Assembly (NCBI GenBank): GCA_019359535.1
Contig: JAHHHE010000030.1
Coordinates: 1 to 38,191 of the forward strand
From: Gloeocapsa sp. UFS-A4-WI-NPMV-4B04
Lineage (GTDB): Bacteria; Cyanobacteriota; Cyanobacteriia; Cyanobacteriales; Chroococcidiopsidaceae
DNA length: 38,191 nucleotides
Direction of reading: 5' to 3'
Shown: positions 15,013-35,216 of the stretch, piece by piece
Numbering within the stretch: position 1 is the stretch's first letter
Layout of the letters: each line of letters starts with the position of its first letter
Program-made: the position numbers and the translations under genes
Notes under the pieces: model-generated
Told to the model about the DNA's origin: nothing
The model's input: only the letters and a program-made list of their open reading frames with translations
Databases searched by the model: none

Positions 15013-15095
15013 GGGTTAGGGGTTAGGGAATAAATTTCCTCTGCTCCCCTGCTAAGAATGCTAAGAATGCTAAGAATGCTAAGAATGCTAAGAAT
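15013..15095. repeat. Compound repeat with five 9-bp units
   Basis: A GGGGTTA/GGGTTAG-type heptamer run near 15011-15028 is followed by AATAAATTT, a CTGCTCCCCTG phrase and five perfect copies of GCTAAGAAT at 15051-15095. The same order of parts (AATAAATTT, CTCCCCTG units, GCTAAGAAT units) recurs near 19017-19103. Confidence 0.85.
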
Positions 15096-15233
15096 GCTCT
15101 AGTTTCCAAAAACGTAACAACAGAAACATTATTGCTGCTTCAATGTCAAATTAGGAAAAAGTATTCAACGGCGCGATGCTCCATAAAGCGGCAAGTCGCT
15201 TGAGAATTTGCTTGGGAAAGCGCTTATTTTAGT

Positions 15234-18209: not shown

Positions 18210-18989
18210 ATGTACATAATACGTCGCTGGTGGGAGCGCCATGCGTTGCCATTGGTGCTGCTAAGTCTAGCCTTGGGGACTGCTTGGACAATTCGGCAAA
18301 CTCAGGGAGGGGCAATTTTTGAAATTTATCAAGTCATTACCAGTCCCCTAGAATTAAGTTCAACTAAGGCAGAGCGTCTGAGTGATGCCAAAACTCTGGA
18401 ACTGCAAGCAAGGTTAGTAGAACTCGAAAGCCAAAATCAAAAGCTAAAGCAGTTACTCGGGTATGTAAAATCAGCACCACAAGCGTCTGTGCAAGGTCGA
18501 GCGATCGCATCTCCTGTTGTGGGACGCAGTGCCGATCATTGGTGGCAACAAGTAACTTTAGGGCGCGGCAGTAATGCTGGGATTCAGGTCGGCTTTATTG
18601 TCAGCGCTCCTGGCGGTTTGGTAGGTCGGATTATCAGTGTAACTCCCAATACCAGCCGTGTATTGCTAATCAGCGATCGCACAAGCTCTGTAGGTGTGAC
18701 AATCAGCCGCAGCCGCCACATGGGTTTTCTCCGAGGACAGTCTGCAAGCCTAGCCGTAATGCAGTTTTTTGATAAAGTCCCAGATGTCCGACACGGAGAT
18801 GTCGTTGCCACTTCCCCTTATAGTCAAATATTTCCCTCTGGTTTGCCTATAGGTCGTGTCGAGTCTATAAACTTAAGTAAAAGCCCTGCACCCGAAGCCG
18901 TAATCTCACTTTCAGCACCAATGCCTTATTTAGAATGGGTTGTTGTTTATCCTAGAGGCGAGAGGCAAGAGGCGAGAGGCGAGAGGTAA
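18210..18989 (+). CDS. mreC: Rod shape-determining protein MreC
   Basis: MreC is a membrane-anchored periplasmic scaffold linking MreB to the wall synthases. An N-terminal anchor helix lies at residues 13-30, a coiled coil near 50-85 (TLELQARLVELESQNQKLKQLLG), and the paired beta-domain follows with SADHWWQQVTLGRGSNAGIQ, APGGLVGRI and the late DVVATSPYSQIFPSGLPIGRV. The natural end would be near WVVVYP; the last 11 residues (RGERQEARGER) are encoded by a GAGGCGA-type heptamer repeat that runs through the stop codon into the intergenic region. The extension is charged and probably tolerated at the periplasmic C-terminus. Confidence 0.94.
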   Translation: MYIIRRWWERHALPLVLLSLALGTAWTIRQTQGGAIFEIYQVITSPLELSSTKAERLSDAKTLELQARLVELESQNQKLKQLLGYVKSAPQASVQGRAIASPVVGRSADHWWQQVTLGRGSNAGIQVGFIVSAPGGLVGRIISVTPNTSRVLLISDRTSSVGVTISRSRHMGFLRGQSASLAVMQFFDKVPDVRHGDVVATSPYSQIFPSGLPIGRVESINLSKSPAPEAVISLSAPMPYLEWVVVYPRGERQEARGER

Positions 18990-19103
18990 TAAATTATTAG
19001 AGGCAAGAGGTAAGAGGCAATAAATTTATCTCCCCTGCTCCCCTGCTAAGAATGCTCCTCTGCTAAGAATGCTAAGAATGCTCCTCTGCTCCTCCGCTAA
19101 GAA
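18953..19103. repeat. Compound STRR across the mreC 3' end
   Basis: GAGGCGA/GAGGCAA heptamers cover 18953-18987 and, after AATAAATTATTAGAGGC, 18996-19020. AATAAATTT follows, then CTCCCCTG units and three or four interrupted GCTAAGAAT units up to about 19103. The first part is coding (mreC C-terminus); the rest fills the mreC-mreD gap. Confidence 0.85.
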
Positions 19104-26999: not shown

Positions 27000-27154
27000 C
27001 TAGGGAAGAAACTGAAGAATATAATTATTTCTTCCTCTTGCCTCTCGCCTCTAATAGTTAAAACTAGGACCTAGGGAAGAAACTGAATATAATTATTTCC
27101 GCCTCTTGCCTCTTGCCTCTCGCCTCTCGCCTCTCGCCTCTCGCCTCTAATAGT
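27000..27154. repeat. Two direct copies of an STRR-bearing element
   Basis: Copies at 27000-27058 and 27071-27154 each start CTAGGGAAGAAACTGA, continue with ATATAATTATTTC and end in GCCTCTC/GCCTCTT heptamers closed by CTAATAGT. The first has about three heptamers and the second seven. The end of the second copy supplies the stop codon of the aminotransferase gene. Confidence 0.85.
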
Positions 27155-28316
27155 GAATACCAGCATCCTTCATCCGTTGGATTGCTTCGTGCATCCGTTC
27201 ATCAGCTACCGTTAGGGCAATTCGGAAAAAGCCTTCCCCTGCTGCACCATAGCCATTACCAGGAGGAACAATAATGCCGCACTTATCTAATAACAACGTC
27301 ACAAATTCAGCCGACGTATAACCTTGAGGAACACGCGCCCAAACATAGAGGGTGGCTTTGGGTGGTTCAATCGGCCAACCGAGAGATTGCAGTCCTTTAA
27401 CAATAATATCTCGGCGATTTTGGTAAACAGACATTACGGCTTGGAGTTCTTCTTCTCCTGTCGAATAAGCAGCGATCGCAGCTCGTTGAATTGCCTTAAA
27501 TACGCCAGAATCTAAGTTTGTTTTTACCTGGCTTAATCCCTTAATTCCGTGAGCAGATCCCACCACAAAACCAACCCGCCAGCCAGTCATATTATAGGAC
27601 TTAGACAGACTGTGAAACTCAATTGCTACATCTTTCGCGCCAGCAACTTGCAATACACTCGGTGGCTTATAACCGTCATAAGCCATTTCCGAATAAGCAT
27701 GGTCATGACAAAGTAAAATGTCGTACTGCTGGCAATAAGCTACCAATTCCTCAAAAAACTCCAGTGTCGCTAAAGCCCCTGTAGGATTATTGGGATAATT
27801 AATCCACAACAACTTTGCTTGACGCGCCACTTCTTCAGGAATAGCATCTAAATCGGGCAAAAAACCGCGTTCTGGTAATAGCGGCATGGTGTGAAACTCA
27901 CCACCAGCAAAAATTGTGGAAGTGCGATATACCGGATACCCTGGATCGGGAATTAAAGTGTAATCCCCTGGTTCCACAAAAGCTAGAAAGGTATTGTGAA
28001 TTGCTTCTTTTGAGCCAATCGAGGAAATTACTTCGGTATTCGGATTTAATCCTGTCACACCAAAGCGGCGTTCCATCCACCTAGCCGCAGCTTCTCGAAA
28101 ATCTTTCGTCCCCTGGTAAGGTGGATAGTTGTGCGTACCAGGATCGTCAATCGCCTCATGCATTGCTTGGACGATATGACCAGGCGTAGGTCGATCTGGA
28201 TCACCTACGCCCATATTAATAATGTCAACTCCCTTAGCAACCATTTCATCTCGTTTGCGGTCAATCTCGGCAAACAGATAGGGAGGAATTTTCTCTAGGC
28301 GTTTGGCAAACTGCAT
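27147..28316 (-). CDS. LL-diaminopimelate aminotransferase-like class I/II aminotransferase
   Basis: A 389-residue PLP enzyme of the DapC_direct/DapL-like group (TIGR03540 type), which transfers amino groups in the short diaminopimelate-lysine route. The PLP lysine is Lys239 in SLSKSYNMTGWRVGF; NYPNNPTG at 173-180 and the PLP-ring Asp in LCHDHAYSE near 204 are intact, as is the carboxylate-binding Arg in FRIAL near 366. The N-terminus MQFAKRLEKIPPYLFAEI is characteristic of this group. Substrate could also be another dicarboxylic or aromatic amino acid, since DapL proper is a related, slightly longer enzyme; hence no symbol is given. The gene stands alone, and its TAG stop abuts a heptamer repeat. 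Confidence 0.85.
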   Translation of the reverse strand: MQFAKRLEKIPPYLFAEIDRKRDEMVAKGVDIINMGVGDPDRPTPGHIVQAMHEAIDDPGTHNYPPYQGTKDFREAAARWMERRFGVTGLNPNTEVISSIGSKEAIHNTFLAFVEPGDYTLIPDPGYPVYRTSTIFAGGEFHTMPLLPERGFLPDLDAIPEEVARQAKLLWINYPNNPTGALATLEFFEELVAYCQQYDILLCHDHAYSEMAYDGYKPPSVLQVAGAKDVAIEFHSLSKSYNMTGWRVGFVVGSAHGIKGLSQVKTNLDSGVFKAIQRAAIAAYSTGEEELQAVMSVYQNRRDIIVKGLQSLGWPIEPPKATLYVWARVPQGYTSAEFVTLLLDKCGIIVPPGNGYGAAGEGFFRIALTVADERMHEAIQRMKDAGIHY

Positions 28317-29719: not shown

Positions 29720-32389
29720 GTGGCAGTTGCTGTTGAAGACTTATTAAAAAATGATATTCTCCGGCCCGCTCGTTATCTAGGAAACGAGCTAGGAGCCGTC
29801 CACAAAGCTTGGGACACGGCAAAAATCCGTTGGGTATTAACTTACCCGGAAGTGTATGAAGTTGGTGCGTCTAATTTAGGGCATATTATTCTCTACAACA
29901 TTTTGAATGCCCAACCGCGTCAGTTGTGCGATCGCGCTTACTTACCAGCAACAGACTTAGCGGAGAAACTGCGAACTACTCAAACTGCTTTATTTGCTGT
30001 AGAATCGCGGCGATCACTAACAGAATTTGATATTTTGGGCTTCAGCCTCAGCTACGAACTGGGAGCAACCAATATTCTCGAAATGTTGGATTTGGCTGGT
30101 ATTCCCCTAACGTGGAAAGAGAGGCGAGAGGAAGAATCTTCCTTAACTTACCCGTTAATTTTTGCGGGGGGACAGACAGCGACATCGAATCCTGAACCTT
30201 ATGCGGAATTTTTTGATTTTATTGCTCTGGGGGATGGTGAAGAACTGTTACCAGAGATTGGCTTAGTATTAGAAGAAGGTAAACTAGCGCAGCTTAACCA
30301 AGAAGAGCTATTACTAGATTTGGCACAGATACCAGGCGTTTATGTGCCTCAGTTTTATGACATGGCAGACGATGGTTCTGTGCATCCAAACCGCCCAGAT
30401 GTGCCAGAGCGGATTTTGCGGCGGGTTGCTACTCCGATGCCAGCTTACTCTATCGGGTTAGTTCCCTACGTAGAAACGGTACATGACCGACTAACGGTTG
30501 AAATTCGACGTGGTTGCACTAGAGGATGTCGCTTTTGTCAACCAGGAATGTTAACCAGGCCAGCGCGAGATGTGGAACCGTCCAAGGTTGTGGAAGCGAT
30601 TGAACACTCAATGCGGGCAACTGGATACAATGAATTTTCCCTACTATCTCTGAGTTGTTCTGATTATCTATCTCTGCCAGCTGTAGGGATGGAAATCAAA
30701 AATCGGCTTAAGGATGAAAATATCTCCCTTTCTTTGCCTAGTCAAAGGGTAGATCGATTTGATGAAAACATTGCCAACATTCTTGGAGGTACACGACAGG
30801 CAGGACTTACCTTCGCTCCCGAAGCTGGAACTCAGCGAATGCGGGACATTGTAAATAAAGGGTTAACGAATGAAGAACTGCTGCGAGGCGTGAAAACAGC
30901 GTTTGAGCAAGGGTGGGATAAAGTCAAACTTTACTTCATGATTGGCTTACCGGGGGAGACAGACGCAGATGTAGTAGGCATTGCTGAAACAGTTGGCTGG
31001 CTACAGCGAGAATGCCGTGCAGATAGCAGAAAGCGTCTTAACTTTAATCTGACAATCTCTAATTTTACGCCGAAGCCTCACACGCCGTTTCAGTGGCATT
31101 CAGTTTCAAAAGCTGAGTTTGAGCGCAAGCAAGCACTACTAAAGCAAGAATTCCGCCGGATAAAGGGTGTAAAGGTTAATTATACCGATGTGCGGATTTC
31201 GGCAATGGAGGATTTTGTCGGACGAGGCGATCGCCGAATCGCTACTGTAATTCGTCGCGCTTGGGAGTTAGGCGCGGGAATGGATGCTTGGTTCGATAGT
31301 TTAGATAAAGCTTATACAGCTTGGGAAAGCGCGATCGCTGAATCTAAACTTACCTGGAAATACCGTCAAGTCGAAAACGGTGAGTGGAATTTAATTAAGG
31401 CTCTTGAGCAGGGGAGCAGAGTAGCAGGGGAGCAGGTGAGCAGGGGAGCAGGTGAGCAAGAGACGTCAGATCACCATTCACTTGATATGCCGTTGCCTTG
31501 GGATCATGTAGATACCGGAATTGACAAAAACTGGCTGAAAACTGATTTGCAAAGAGCCTTAGATGCGGCAACAGTGCCAGATTGTTCTTTTGAAGGCTGT
31601 TCCCACTGCGGCGTTTGCGGCACTGATTTTGGTCATAATGTCGTTATTGAGCCGCTACCTATTCCTGCGTTTACTGGGCATTTTGTCCCCGACACCACTA
31701 AGTCTCAAAGGTTGCGAATTGAGTTTGGTAAGCTTGGCGATATGGCTTTGATTAGCCACCTAGATTTGCTGCGTTTATTTGACCGAGCCTTACGTAGAGC
31801 AGCACTGCCGATTTCATTTACCGGGGGATTTCATCCTGGTCCTCGGATTGCGATCGCGCTTGCCTTACCTTTGGGAGTGACTAGCAGTGGTGAAATAATG
31901 GATTTTGAATTGACCAAGCAAGTTGATATTGAGACTTTCCGACAACAGTTAATAAGTCAGTTACCTGAAGATATCCCAATTTACAGTGTGACTACGGTTG
32001 ACTTGAAAACACCTGCGGCTACACAGTTATTAGCAAAAGCTGAATATTTGATCACGGTAGCAACAGATAACGAAACTTCTACAGTGCAATGGCAGATCTG
32101 GGTAGACGCGATTCAAGCCTTAGATACTATTTGGTGGGAGCAGACAACTAAATCTGGGAAAACTCAGATGGTAAATTTGCGCGATCGCTTGTTTGAGTTG
32201 GATCTAGTAGAAGTTGCACCACCAGAGTGCCAACAAGAAAAATCCTCTGTTGTTTTACGCTATGTAGGTAGCTGTAAGAATGATGGTACTCAACTGCGAC
32301 CAGAACAGGTAGTTCTGATGCTAGAGCAAGTGGCCAAGGTCGAAATTCAGCTACTACACATCCACCGTAATCAACTGCTACTCCATTAA
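29720..32389 (+). CDS. TIGR03960-type radical SAM protein fused to DUF2344 domain
   Basis: An 889-residue protein with an N-terminal B12-binding-like region (about 1-230), a radical SAM core carrying the 4Fe-4S motif RRGCTRGCRFCQPGM (CxxxCxxC near 266-273), a Cys-rich linker (CSFEGCSHCGVCG near 620) and a C-terminal TIGR03936/DUF2344 domain (about 655-885, with LISHLDLLRLFDRALRRA and GGFHPGPRIAIALALPLG). The start is GTG at 29720. In many bacteria the same fusion lies beside rne/rng, as here, and a role in RNA modification or RNase maturation has been suggested; the reaction is unknown. Residues near 563-583 (EQGSRVAGEQVSRGAGEQ) are an 8-bp repeat translated in frame, between the SAM core and the Cys-rich linker. 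Confidence 0.93.
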   Translation: MAVAVEDLLKNDILRPARYLGNELGAVHKAWDTAKIRWVLTYPEVYEVGASNLGHIILYNILNAQPRQLCDRAYLPATDLAEKLRTTQTALFAVESRRSLTEFDILGFSLSYELGATNILEMLDLAGIPLTWKERREEESSLTYPLIFAGGQTATSNPEPYAEFFDFIALGDGEELLPEIGLVLEEGKLAQLNQEELLLDLAQIPGVYVPQFYDMADDGSVHPNRPDVPERILRRVATPMPAYSIGLVPYVETVHDRLTVEIRRGCTRGCRFCQPGMLTRPARDVEPSKVVEAIEHSMRATGYNEFSLLSLSCSDYLSLPAVGMEIKNRLKDENISLSLPSQRVDRFDENIANILGGTRQAGLTFAPEAGTQRMRDIVNKGLTNEELLRGVKTAFEQGWDKVKLYFMIGLPGETDADVVGIAETVGWLQRECRADSRKRLNFNLTISNFTPKPHTPFQWHSVSKAEFERKQALLKQEFRRIKGVKVNYTDVRISAMEDFVGRGDRRIATVIRRAWELGAGMDAWFDSLDKAYTAWESAIAESKLTWKYRQVENGEWNLIKALEQGSRVAGEQVSRGAGEQETSDHHSLDMPLPWDHVDTGIDKNWLKTDLQRALDAATVPDCSFEGCSHCGVCGTDFGHNVVIEPLPIPAFTGHFVPDTTKSQRLRIEFGKLGDMALISHLDLLRLFDRALRRAALPISFTGGFHPGPRIAIALALPLGVTSSGEIMDFELTKQVDIETFRQQLISQLPEDIPIYSVTTVDLKTPAATQLLAKAEYLITVATDNETSTVQWQIWVDAIQALDTIWWEQTTKSGKTQMVNLRDRLFELDLVEVAPPECQQEKSSVVLRYVGSCKNDGTQLRPEQVVLMLEQVAKVEIQLLHIHRNQLLLH
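31405..31471 (+). repeat. In-frame 8-bp tandem repeat inside radical SAM gene
   Basis: About eight units of GAGCAGGG/GAGCAGGT run without a stop through the linker. Since 8 is not a multiple of 3, the reading repeats every three units, giving the GEQVSRGAGEQ pattern. The frame is kept on both sides. Confidence 0.85.
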
Positions 32390-32942: not shown

Positions 32943-35216
32943 ATGCCAAAACAAATTATTATTGCCGAGCAGCATCACATAGCTGCGGTTTTTTCTGAAG
33001 ATCAAATTCAAGAACTTGTTGTTGCCACTGGCCGTCACCAGATAGGTGATATTTATCTTGGTATTGTTGAAAACGTACTTCCTGGGATAGATGCGGCTTT
33101 TGTTAACATTGGCGACGCGGAGCGCAATGGTTTTATTCATGTGACTGACTTGGGTCCTTTGAAGTTAAAGCGCACAGCAGGGGCAATTACAGAACTGTTA
33201 GCTCCACAGCAGAAAGTCCTTGTCCAAGTAATGAAAGAGCCAACGGGCAATAAAGGGCCTAGGCTTACAGGTAATATCACCATGCCTGGTCGCTATGTAG
33301 TGTTAATGCCGTTTGGACGGGGCGTGAATTTATCACGAAGAATCAAGAGCGAAAGCGAACGCAATCGCTTAAGAGCTTTGGCTATTTTGGTTAAACCAGC
33401 AGGAATGGGTTTGCTGGTGCGCACAGAAGCGGAGGGAAAACCAGAAGAAGCGATTATAGAAGATTTGGAGACATTGCAGAAACAATGGGAAGCGATTCAG
33501 CTAGAAGCTCAATCTACGCGACCCCCAGCACTGCTCAACCGCGACGATGATTTTATTCAGCGTGTATTGCGCGATATGTACGGTTCGGATGTGAATCGAA
33601 TTGTTGTTGATTCAAACACTGGGCTGAGGCGGGTGAAGCAATACCTAGTAAATTGGAGTGGAGGTCAAGCACCGCAGGGACTACTGATTGATCATCATCG
33701 CGATCGCAGCTCAATTTTGGAATACTTCCGCATTAATGCCGCAATTCGAGAAGCCCTAAAGCCACGAGTTGAGCTACCTTCGGGGGGCTATGTCATTATT
33801 GAACCAACCGAAGCTTTGACTGTAGTTGATGTTAACTCCGGCTCATTTACCCGCTCTGCCACCGCTAGAGAAACTGTCTTGTGGACGAACTGCGAAGCAG
33901 CAACAGAAATTGCGCGTCAACTGCGGCTGCGAAATCTAGCGGGTGTGATTATTGTAGATTTCATTGATATGGAATCGCGCAAAGATCAGCTGCAAGTGAT
34001 AGAACATTTCAATAAAGCGCTGAAAGCGGACAAGGCAAGACCCCAAATTGCTCAATTGTCTGAACTCGGTTTGGTAGAACTAACGCGCAAGCGCCAAGGT
34101 CAAAACATTTACGAATTGTTTGGTCGCCCCTGTACTACTTGTGGAGGACTGGGACATCTCGTACATCTACCAGAAGAAACCGAAAGTCGCGATCGCGAAG
34201 TTGTGGGAACCCCCAGAGAACGGGTAATACCCACGAACGGAGAGCCAGAACGGACTATAATTCTACCTTCTAGGGAGTCTCGAACACCAGAGAAAATCAG
34301 GCTGCCAGAACCCCGCGAAACTTATGAGACTCAAGGGGAAGCGTTTGAGTCTGACTTTGATACTGAAGTGCAAGCCTACAATCTCCTCAATCATCCCAGT
34401 TATCAAGAGCTTGGAGATGCAAATAAAAATCGACGTACCCGCCGCCGTCGAATTGGGATAGGTGAAGGTGGTGTGAATGACGCTCGACCTTCTAACCCGC
34501 CACTTGCTTTAGTAAGTGAACGAGAGCCAGAAATGGATCTGGAAGTTGAGCAGGAGGAGGATTCACCCAGGAATACTTCTGTACAACCCGAAAGCTCGGT
34601 AAAAGAGGTTTCTTTACCAGTTACTGGCAAAGCTAGCTGGGTTGAGCGCTCGGAGCGGACTAAGCCTAGCAAGCCAGAGCCAGTGAAACCCATTACAGAA
34701 CCACCTGAGCTTGTTTCTATAGAAATGACACCGGAAGAACAAGATGTTTACGCCTTTATGGGAGTTTCTCCTCTTGTGCGCTTAAATCGTGGGGTCAAAA
34801 ATTCCAGGTCTGTAATTATTAACGTCATATTACCAGGGCAACTTCCAGATGCCGCTAATGTGAGTGAAAACGAAACGCTTGAGTTTGAACCGACGACTAA
34901 TTCAATCCCAGCGCAACTTCCAGATGCCGCTAATGTGAGTGAAAACGAAACGCCTGACTTGGTGGAATCAGTTGTTGATGCAACGATTGAACCTGAGGCA
35001 GTAATACTGCCGATTAAGGCAGAGGAAGAATCGTTGCTGGAGCCTGTGTCCCCTCCGTTGTCGGTTTCTGTAATGACAGCAACTGAACCGGAGCCTGTGT
35101 CCCCTCCATCGTCGGTTTCTGTAATGACAGCAACTGAAACTGAAGCTCCTAACGAAGGGTTGGTACGTCGCCGTCGCCGTCGCTCTTCTGCGGCTGAAAA
35201 TAGAACTGAGGACTGA
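32943..35216 (+). CDS. rne: Ribonuclease E (cyanobacterial type)
   Basis: RNase E starts mRNA decay and processes stable RNA. The N-terminal catalytic half has an S1 domain (about 35-120, IGDIYLGIVENVLPGIDAAF), the 5'-sensor/RNase H-like part, the metal Asp in VVDVNSGSF near 294 and in IIVDFIDME near 339, and the zinc-link CTTCGG near 397-402. The C-terminal half (about 430-757) is disordered, acidic and Pro-rich, without the E. coli degradosome sites, and ends with RRRRRRSSA plus seven residues, the tail shown in Anabaena to bind polynucleotide phosphorylase. Two direct duplications (25 and 17 codons apart) lie in this tail. The gene has a long leader and is followed by rnhB after 22 bases. 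Confidence 0.96.
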   Translation: MPKQIIIAEQHHIAAVFSEDQIQELVVATGRHQIGDIYLGIVENVLPGIDAAFVNIGDAERNGFIHVTDLGPLKLKRTAGAITELLAPQQKVLVQVMKEPTGNKGPRLTGNITMPGRYVVLMPFGRGVNLSRRIKSESERNRLRALAILVKPAGMGLLVRTEAEGKPEEAIIEDLETLQKQWEAIQLEAQSTRPPALLNRDDDFIQRVLRDMYGSDVNRIVVDSNTGLRRVKQYLVNWSGGQAPQGLLIDHHRDRSSILEYFRINAAIREALKPRVELPSGGYVIIEPTEALTVVDVNSGSFTRSATARETVLWTNCEAATEIARQLRLRNLAGVIIVDFIDMESRKDQLQVIEHFNKALKADKARPQIAQLSELGLVELTRKRQGQNIYELFGRPCTTCGGLGHLVHLPEETESRDREVVGTPRERVIPTNGEPERTIILPSRESRTPEKIRLPEPRETYETQGEAFESDFDTEVQAYNLLNHPSYQELGDANKNRRTRRRRIGIGEGGVNDARPSNPPLALVSEREPEMDLEVEQEEDSPRNTSVQPESSVKEVSLPVTGKASWVERSERTKPSKPEPVKPITEPPELVSIEMTPEEQDVYAFMGVSPLVRLNRGVKNSRSVIINVILPGQLPDAANVSENETLEFEPTTNSIPAQLPDAANVSENETPDLVESVVDATIEPEAVILPIKAEEESLLEPVSPPLSVSVMTATEPEPVSPPSSVSVMTATETEAPNEGLVRRRRRRSSAAENRTED
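34838..35138 (+). repeat. Two direct repeats in the rne tail region
   Basis: A 41-base block is identical at 34838-34878 and 34913-34953 (QLPDAANVSENET). A 48-base block recurs at 35040-35087 and 35091-35138 with few changes (EPVSPPxSVSVMTATE). Both offsets (75 and 51 bases) are multiples of three, so frame is kept. Confidence 0.85.

Follow-up and report, generated by a model that had tools for sequence, protein, structure and literature searches.

Excerpted accounts describe the short tandemly repeated repetitive (STRR) sequences of cyanobacteria as short tandem units, usually of 7 bp, present at many places in the genome (PMC2670836), and report G-rich heptamers of the GGGNATC type from both Xanthomonas and Nostoc, intragenic copies being given as rare in the xanthomonads (PMC4692102). 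The Rickettsia palindromic elements (RPEs) are similarly described, in the part of the source drawn on here, as lying in frame inside unrelated metabolic genes (PMC10969869). The present analysis concerns a tract in Gloeocapsa sp. UFS-A4-WI-NPMV-4B04, within a stretch of 38,191 nucleotides (contig JAHHHE010000030.1, positions 1 to 38,191, forward strand; hereafter the window), where an 8-bp unit, GAGCAGGG, is repeated in tandem and translated inside a gene coding for a fusion of a B12-binding radical SAM enzyme (TIGR03960) with a DUF2344 part (TIGR03936). It is very probable that this tract is a copy of a dispersed STRR-type repeat in a tolerant inter-domain linker, where it is simply translated.

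Tandem Repeats Finder (TRF) located the 8-bp array at 31406-31458 (6.6 copies, 84% matches, score 78), and also returned a 16-bp period for the tract (31405-31458, 3.4 copies, 92% matches, score 92). An earlier reading made from the letters alone (the sequence-only reading) had recorded about eight copies at 31405-31471: the tandem tract itself stands, but the copies are six to seven in number and imperfect, and end near 31458. The proposal that an STRR is translated in frame inside the radical SAM enzyme was borne out, codons 563-580 of the relevant open reading frame (ORF, 29720-32389) specifying EQGSRVAGEQVSRGAGEQ. The 14-mer GAGCAGGGGAGCAG, with two or fewer mismatches, was matched nine times in the window as compared with 0.15 expected, a figure reached in none of 100 shuffles and hence far beyond chance. 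The proposed linker placement was also confirmed, the array lying between the TIGR03960 and TIGR03936/DUF2344 matches and ahead of a cysteine cluster (Table 1). Of the three forward frames of the real array, the coding frame alone is free of stops. Simulated changes of -2, -1, +1 and +2 units generated stops at codons 592, 586, 600 and 594 respectively, while +3 units led to the normal end of the protein, exactly the arithmetic previously put forward, whereby changes of one or two units truncate the protein and a gain of three reads through. The predicted RNA fold of the tract was no better than that of shuffled sequences (z -0.18), and a 31-mer taken from it was absent from the viral contigs searched. 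The notion that the 8-mer is special in being stop-free in all six frames was discarded, 36% of 20,000 8-mers sampled from the window proving likewise when made tandem.

At the level of the whole genome the repeat is clearly dispersed. The 14-mer gave 86 exact matches (53 and 33 by strand) and its backwards sequence none, these matches making up 43 separate arrays, each with 2 to 12 units; because a variant 14-mer was matched 44 times, in some cases at different places, 43 arrays represents a lower bound. Among 32 relatives searched, 17 contained the 14-mer, with up to 279 matches (genome G032). Within the window, units of CTCCCCTG, the reverse strand of the GAGCAGGG-type family, were observed interspersed with a tandem 9-mer, TGCTAAGAA, at two inter-ORF places (15050-15098 and 19030-19098).

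Translation of the GAGCAGGG-type repeat also takes place within conserved proteins encoded elsewhere in this genome. Twenty of the 43 arrays fell inside a frame that runs from stop to stop for at least 150 residues and leaves 10 or more residues on each side of the array, amounting to 19 frames including that of the fusion gene, and 16 of the 18 others contained a Pfam family; arrays near the frame start (L032, L100 and perhaps L091) may precede the true start codon. Eleven arrays, again including that of the fusion gene, have Pfam-matched residues of their protein on both sides (Table 1, where the name MenD-like for a thiamine pyrophosphate enzyme was inferred from Pfam domains), most of them between domains, while those in CbiD and AnmK interrupt a single family. 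Rows from relatives were obtained for PriA in 18 of 19 cases (G007 giving only weak matches), and for AnmK one of the 19 (L219) had no data at the site: the block at PriA site 1 was missing in 18/18 rows and the AnmK block in all 18 that had data, and 19/19 rows lacked the MenD-like block. The AnmK, MenD-like and second PriA sites were variable in themselves. The G-rich strand was the coding strand (EQGSRGAG) in 16 of the 20 ORF arrays (binomial p = 0.012) and in 9 of the 11 arrays of the strict set (p = 0.065). Comparison of the PriA array at the DNA level with one empty site, that of G001, revealed AGC shared at one junction, which is only a hint with regard to seeding. The PriA array (L089 1508-1601) additionally includes a block that is not tandem and encodes RLGAPSGDGGERG; residues nearly the same, RLGAPFGDGGERG, occur beside another array at C196 (the loci concerned being L089 and L103), which suggests that the tandem repeat harbours another small element within it.

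Homologues of the fusion gene were taken from 130 loci, 50 from aligned genomes plus the best 80 of 126, all of these 80 named relatives being cyanobacteria by title. After removal of six duplicates and of three loci that failed the anchor search (L138, L144 and L181, open across the linker), 121 distinct genes were kept, that of the window included. Ten of 60 genomes were unaligned: G025, G031, G046, G047 and G051 each gave one stop-free match across the linker on genome search, G039 and G043 only a distant relative, while the locus was cut off in G018, met a contig end in the linker repeat in G026, and contained a frame break in G028. Both flanks of the linker were conserved in a 40-row alignment and the linker itself was variable, its length in the 121 genes extending from 16 to 87 residues (median 33; 42 in the window), with 43 of them at 40 residues or more. 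The linker, 4.05% of the sequence, held 46 of the 86 tandem arrays recorded by TRF in these genes, distributed over 36 of them; the corresponding binomial value of about 1e-40 ignores relatedness, and can be taken only as an indication of very strong enrichment. It was also the most length-variable interval between conserved columns (standard deviation (SD) 15.4 residues, range 10-82), followed by residues 135-145 (SD 10.2 residues), where 19 arrays were present in 13 of the 121 genes and none in the gene under study. Six genes hold arrays in both hot spots, and 21 of the 86 arrays lie outside both. On a FastTree gene tree of 121 rows (36 with an array), constructed with the two variable parts removed, at least 20 changes between presence and absence of a linker array were counted. 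The period was not a multiple of 3 in 31 of the 46 linker arrays, and was divisible by 3 in 19 of the 65 arrays of the two hot spots, close to the one third that would be expected were unit length indifferent to coding. The linker had been proposed to be a tolerant one, and its range of lengths, its frequent filling with unrelated repeats and its conserved flanks agree with this; in no aligned homologue row were the same residues conserved without the DNA repeat.

The residues at this site are lineage-specific, and other repeats occupy the same spot elsewhere. The only congener (G001) has different repeat-like DNA in its linker, built on another dispersed 8-mer, the pattern GACAAGGRGACAAGG (GACAAGGR-type) giving 81 matches in that genome, one of them within its copy of the fusion gene, and 15 in the genome of the window. 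The GATGTAACG linker repeat was matched 75 times in G019, 10 times in G050 and not at all in two other genomes searched; the CCAATCCCC linker repeat 156 times in G052, never in G056 despite a similar linker, and 294 times in G029, the linker of which carries a different repeat; and the AGAAGGA heptamer 339 times in G050, 278 times in G019 and not in two other genomes. Of the five linker repeats tested besides that of the window, four were present in multiple copies in the genome from which they came. The draft of G026 breaks inside the linker of the fusion gene (contigs C151 and C46; L247, L248), in array units of about 16 bp, CCCCGTCTCCGAGTCT, as read by eye.

All 130 loci, that of the window and the six duplicates included, were open across the linker, a result that is weak evidence on rare off-variants given that the loci were found by protein match. 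In the three cleanest of seven aligned pairs the difference in the array was 21 bp of heptamers for L018/L012, 18 bp for L010/L064, and for L019/L145 again 21 bp, representing 5 versus 8 heptamers. Breaks were recorded at other places: in the fusion gene of G028 at about residues 91-134, ending beside the second variable loop, with no repeat visible by eye, no repeat finder being used; in G001, near residue 90 of PriA and after about residue 39 of AnmK, both away from the arrays; and among MenD-like matches as single stops in G007 and G020, with a split match in G019.

By way of explanation, a GAGCAGGG-type repeat would have arisen in, or entered, a structurally tolerant linker, short similar sequences presumably serving as sites at which slippage or template switching starts and extends new arrays; selection would eliminate those insertions and copy-number changes by which the reading frame is lost or a folded domain disturbed, so that the arrays that last would be in-frame sums located in linkers and loops. 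The tract would need no role as a switch, the encoded peptide probably has no specific function, and nothing in this analysis pointed to a switch or to a specific role for the peptide: the tract has the look of genomic litter tolerated under selection for frame, and not of an on/off switch. A number of points weigh against this explanation. Because the compared genes are all open, their net differences in length are to some extent bound to be multiples of 3; the other aligned pairs were moreover less clean, with gaps of 6, 30, 36 and 51 bp or mixed differences. The backwards control for AGAAGGA was as high as the pattern itself, and is uninformative because the unit reads nearly the same both ways, while the linker repeat of G058 was not dispersed as judged by its exact pattern (3 matches, 2 of them in the linker). 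Similar GSRGA-type residues at PriA site 2 in G001, G002 and G012 indicate that this site may be older or refilled, and the AnmK row of G001 has a short QGSRG. The strand bias is a hint that peptide or strand matters. Finally, the AlphaFold model, computed from 40 rows (the window protein plus 39 of the best 80 loci), was too poor to show disorder in the linker, much of the conserved core also scoring low (mean predicted local distance difference test (pLDDT) 63.1, predicted template modelling score (pTM) 0.36).

Were the tract a phase-variable site, as the sequence-only reading had also raised, slippage by one or two units would turn off the cysteine cluster and the DUF2344 half to give an on/off enzyme, and both the unit length, not a multiple of 3, and the termination at codons 586-600 after such shifts are in keeping with that possibility. 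The suggestion nevertheless gained no support and is very improbable, given that an off state was seen in 0/130 loci (chosen by protein match, with 10/60 genomes unaligned), that the copies are imperfect (84%) and the array mid-gene in a widely kept gene, and that relatives have different repeats or none at the site, so that any switch is not conserved. Still harder to credit is an ordinary intragenic tandem duplication of coding sequence, unrelated to dispersed repeats. Tandem duplications are common in coding linkers, and the neighbouring RNase E gene has one of period 51, but the dispersed copies contradict such an origin here, GAGCAGGG forming 43 arrays in the genome, and a period divisible by 3 was recorded in only 19/65 hot-spot arrays. 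The RNase E duplication itself, located in the C-terminal tail at 35039-35138, is by contrast an ordinary intragenic repeat with a unit (51 bp) that is a multiple of 3.

Two other explanations are somewhat less remote, each being nonetheless unlikely. Linker length, or a hydrophilic disordered peptide, might be selected as a functional spacer for which dispersed repeats are the raw material (exaptation): a bias of 16 to 4 towards the hydrophilic reading, the frequency of long linkers (43/121 of at least 40 residues) and the coincidence of the coding frame with the only stop-free forward frame of the array all accord with this, whereas the 16- to 87-residue linkers have no common sequence, relatives with 16-24 residues retain both parts of the protein, and nearly identical proteins (L119/L121, L126/L129) have different linkers. 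Alternatively, the repeat could be a putative mobile element with its own trans-acting spreading machinery, which would fit its high copy number in some genomes and absence from others (17/32 relatives, up to 279 matches in G032), as well as the non-tandem block in the PriA array and the similar residues beside the array at C196; against this, slippage is enough for tandem growth, and neither conserved ends nor a target duplication was seen in the one empty site compared (PriA, G001). A translated copy of a dispersed repeat, tolerated in its linker, hence remains the preferred explanation. A broader proposition can be advanced only tentatively, as possible rather than probable: that cyanobacterial repeats with units not a multiple of 3 actively spread and fill enzyme linkers in frame across the phylum, the same linkers (fusion, PriA, AnmK, MenD-like) being refilled by the current family of each lineage and the strand encoding a hydrophilic peptide preferred, as a structurally unrelated counterpart of the RPEs.

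The features of the host gene are collected in Table 1. Both parts of the encoded protein passed the curated NCBIfam cut-offs (TIGR03960, 586.9 versus 462.3 bits; TIGR03936, 215.4 versus 71.9 bits), and Pfam recognised Radical_SAM_N2, Radical_SAM and DUF2344; a search of solved structures returned one weak match, to a radical SAM core. Most relatives contain a second protein, 32-36% identical, in an open frame of roughly 530-640 residues; as the match mostly ends by about residue 524, this protein is without the DUF2344 part. It was not found in the genome of the window, which is 84% complete.

Table 1. Features of the fusion gene, and proteins containing the internal arrays.
Feature	Position	Strand	Basis
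8-bp GAGCAGGG array, 6.6 imperfect copies, 16-bp superperiod, residues 563-580	31406..31458	+	TRF, translation
Fusion gene, 889 residues, GTG start	29720..32389	+	NCBIfam, Pfam
TIGR03960 match, B12-binding and radical SAM core, residues 12-548	29753..31363	+	NCBIfam
Second variable loop, residues 135-145	30122..30154	+	Length variation between conserved columns
Variable linker, residues 550-591, WKYR to LPWD anchors	31367..31492	+	Homologue alignment
Cysteine cluster, residues 622-633; C622, C627, C630 and C633 invariant	31583..31618	+	40-row alignment
TIGR03936/DUF2344 match, residues 664-886	31709..32377	+	NCBIfam, Pfam
Proteins with the 11 arrays: fusion gene, GH3, NRPS, GH38, GcvP (glycine dehydrogenase), CbiD, MenC, MenD-like, AnmK, PriA (twice)			Pfam

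Two heptamer arrays were also observed in the window. That of AGAGGCG/AGAGGCA (18954-19026) encodes the C-terminus (..GERQEARGER, stop) of ORF 18210-18989, and continues beyond the stop; we take this ORF to be MreC by place and sequence, without a family search. Seven copies of CGCCTCT (27100-27148) lie directly 3' of the minus-strand ORF 27147-28316.

The single site is modest; the interest lies in the pattern that emerges across genes and lineages. It provides a natural, datable series of in-frame insertions in recognisable enzymes (radical SAM, PriA, AnmK and others), from which one can measure how much each linker tolerates and how fast repeats turn over. It may also explain why cyanobacterial proteins have low-complexity stretches specific to a lineage, and why the G026 assembly breaks within a gene, and cautions against taking such stretches for functional domains or phase-variable switches. 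Among the open-licence literature matches listed, to which key older papers are external, no description was found of translated STRRs in the linkers of conserved proteins.

When set beside the described systems, the tract resembles the STRRs in being a short tandem unit (period 8) dispersed in a cyanobacterial genome (86 matches, 43 arrays), the likeness being one of description; it differs in its 8-bp unit and in the translation of its arrays within conserved proteins, mostly at linkers. With the heptamers of Xanthomonas and Nostoc it shares short G-rich tandem units across the genome, but here 20/43 arrays lie in frames of at least 150 residues with the G-rich strand coding in 16/20, a comparison in which the counting methods differ. 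Like simple-sequence contingency loci it has an intragenic unit not divisible by 3; unlike them it is imperfect (84%, short of the near-perfect repetition by which such loci are recognised), occupies a mid-gene linker, has no off state seen, and is not conserved in relatives. The GAGCAGGG arrays are, as with the RPEs, in frame within unrelated conserved genes. An RPE, however, is a palindrome of about 150 bp with a conserved peptide, whereas the tract is a direct array of 53 bp, the 8-bp arrays vary in length, and the repeat families differ between lineages. The best reading is that repeats of STRR type settle in frame in the linkers of proteins, resembling the Rickettsia palindromic elements in effect but not in structure.
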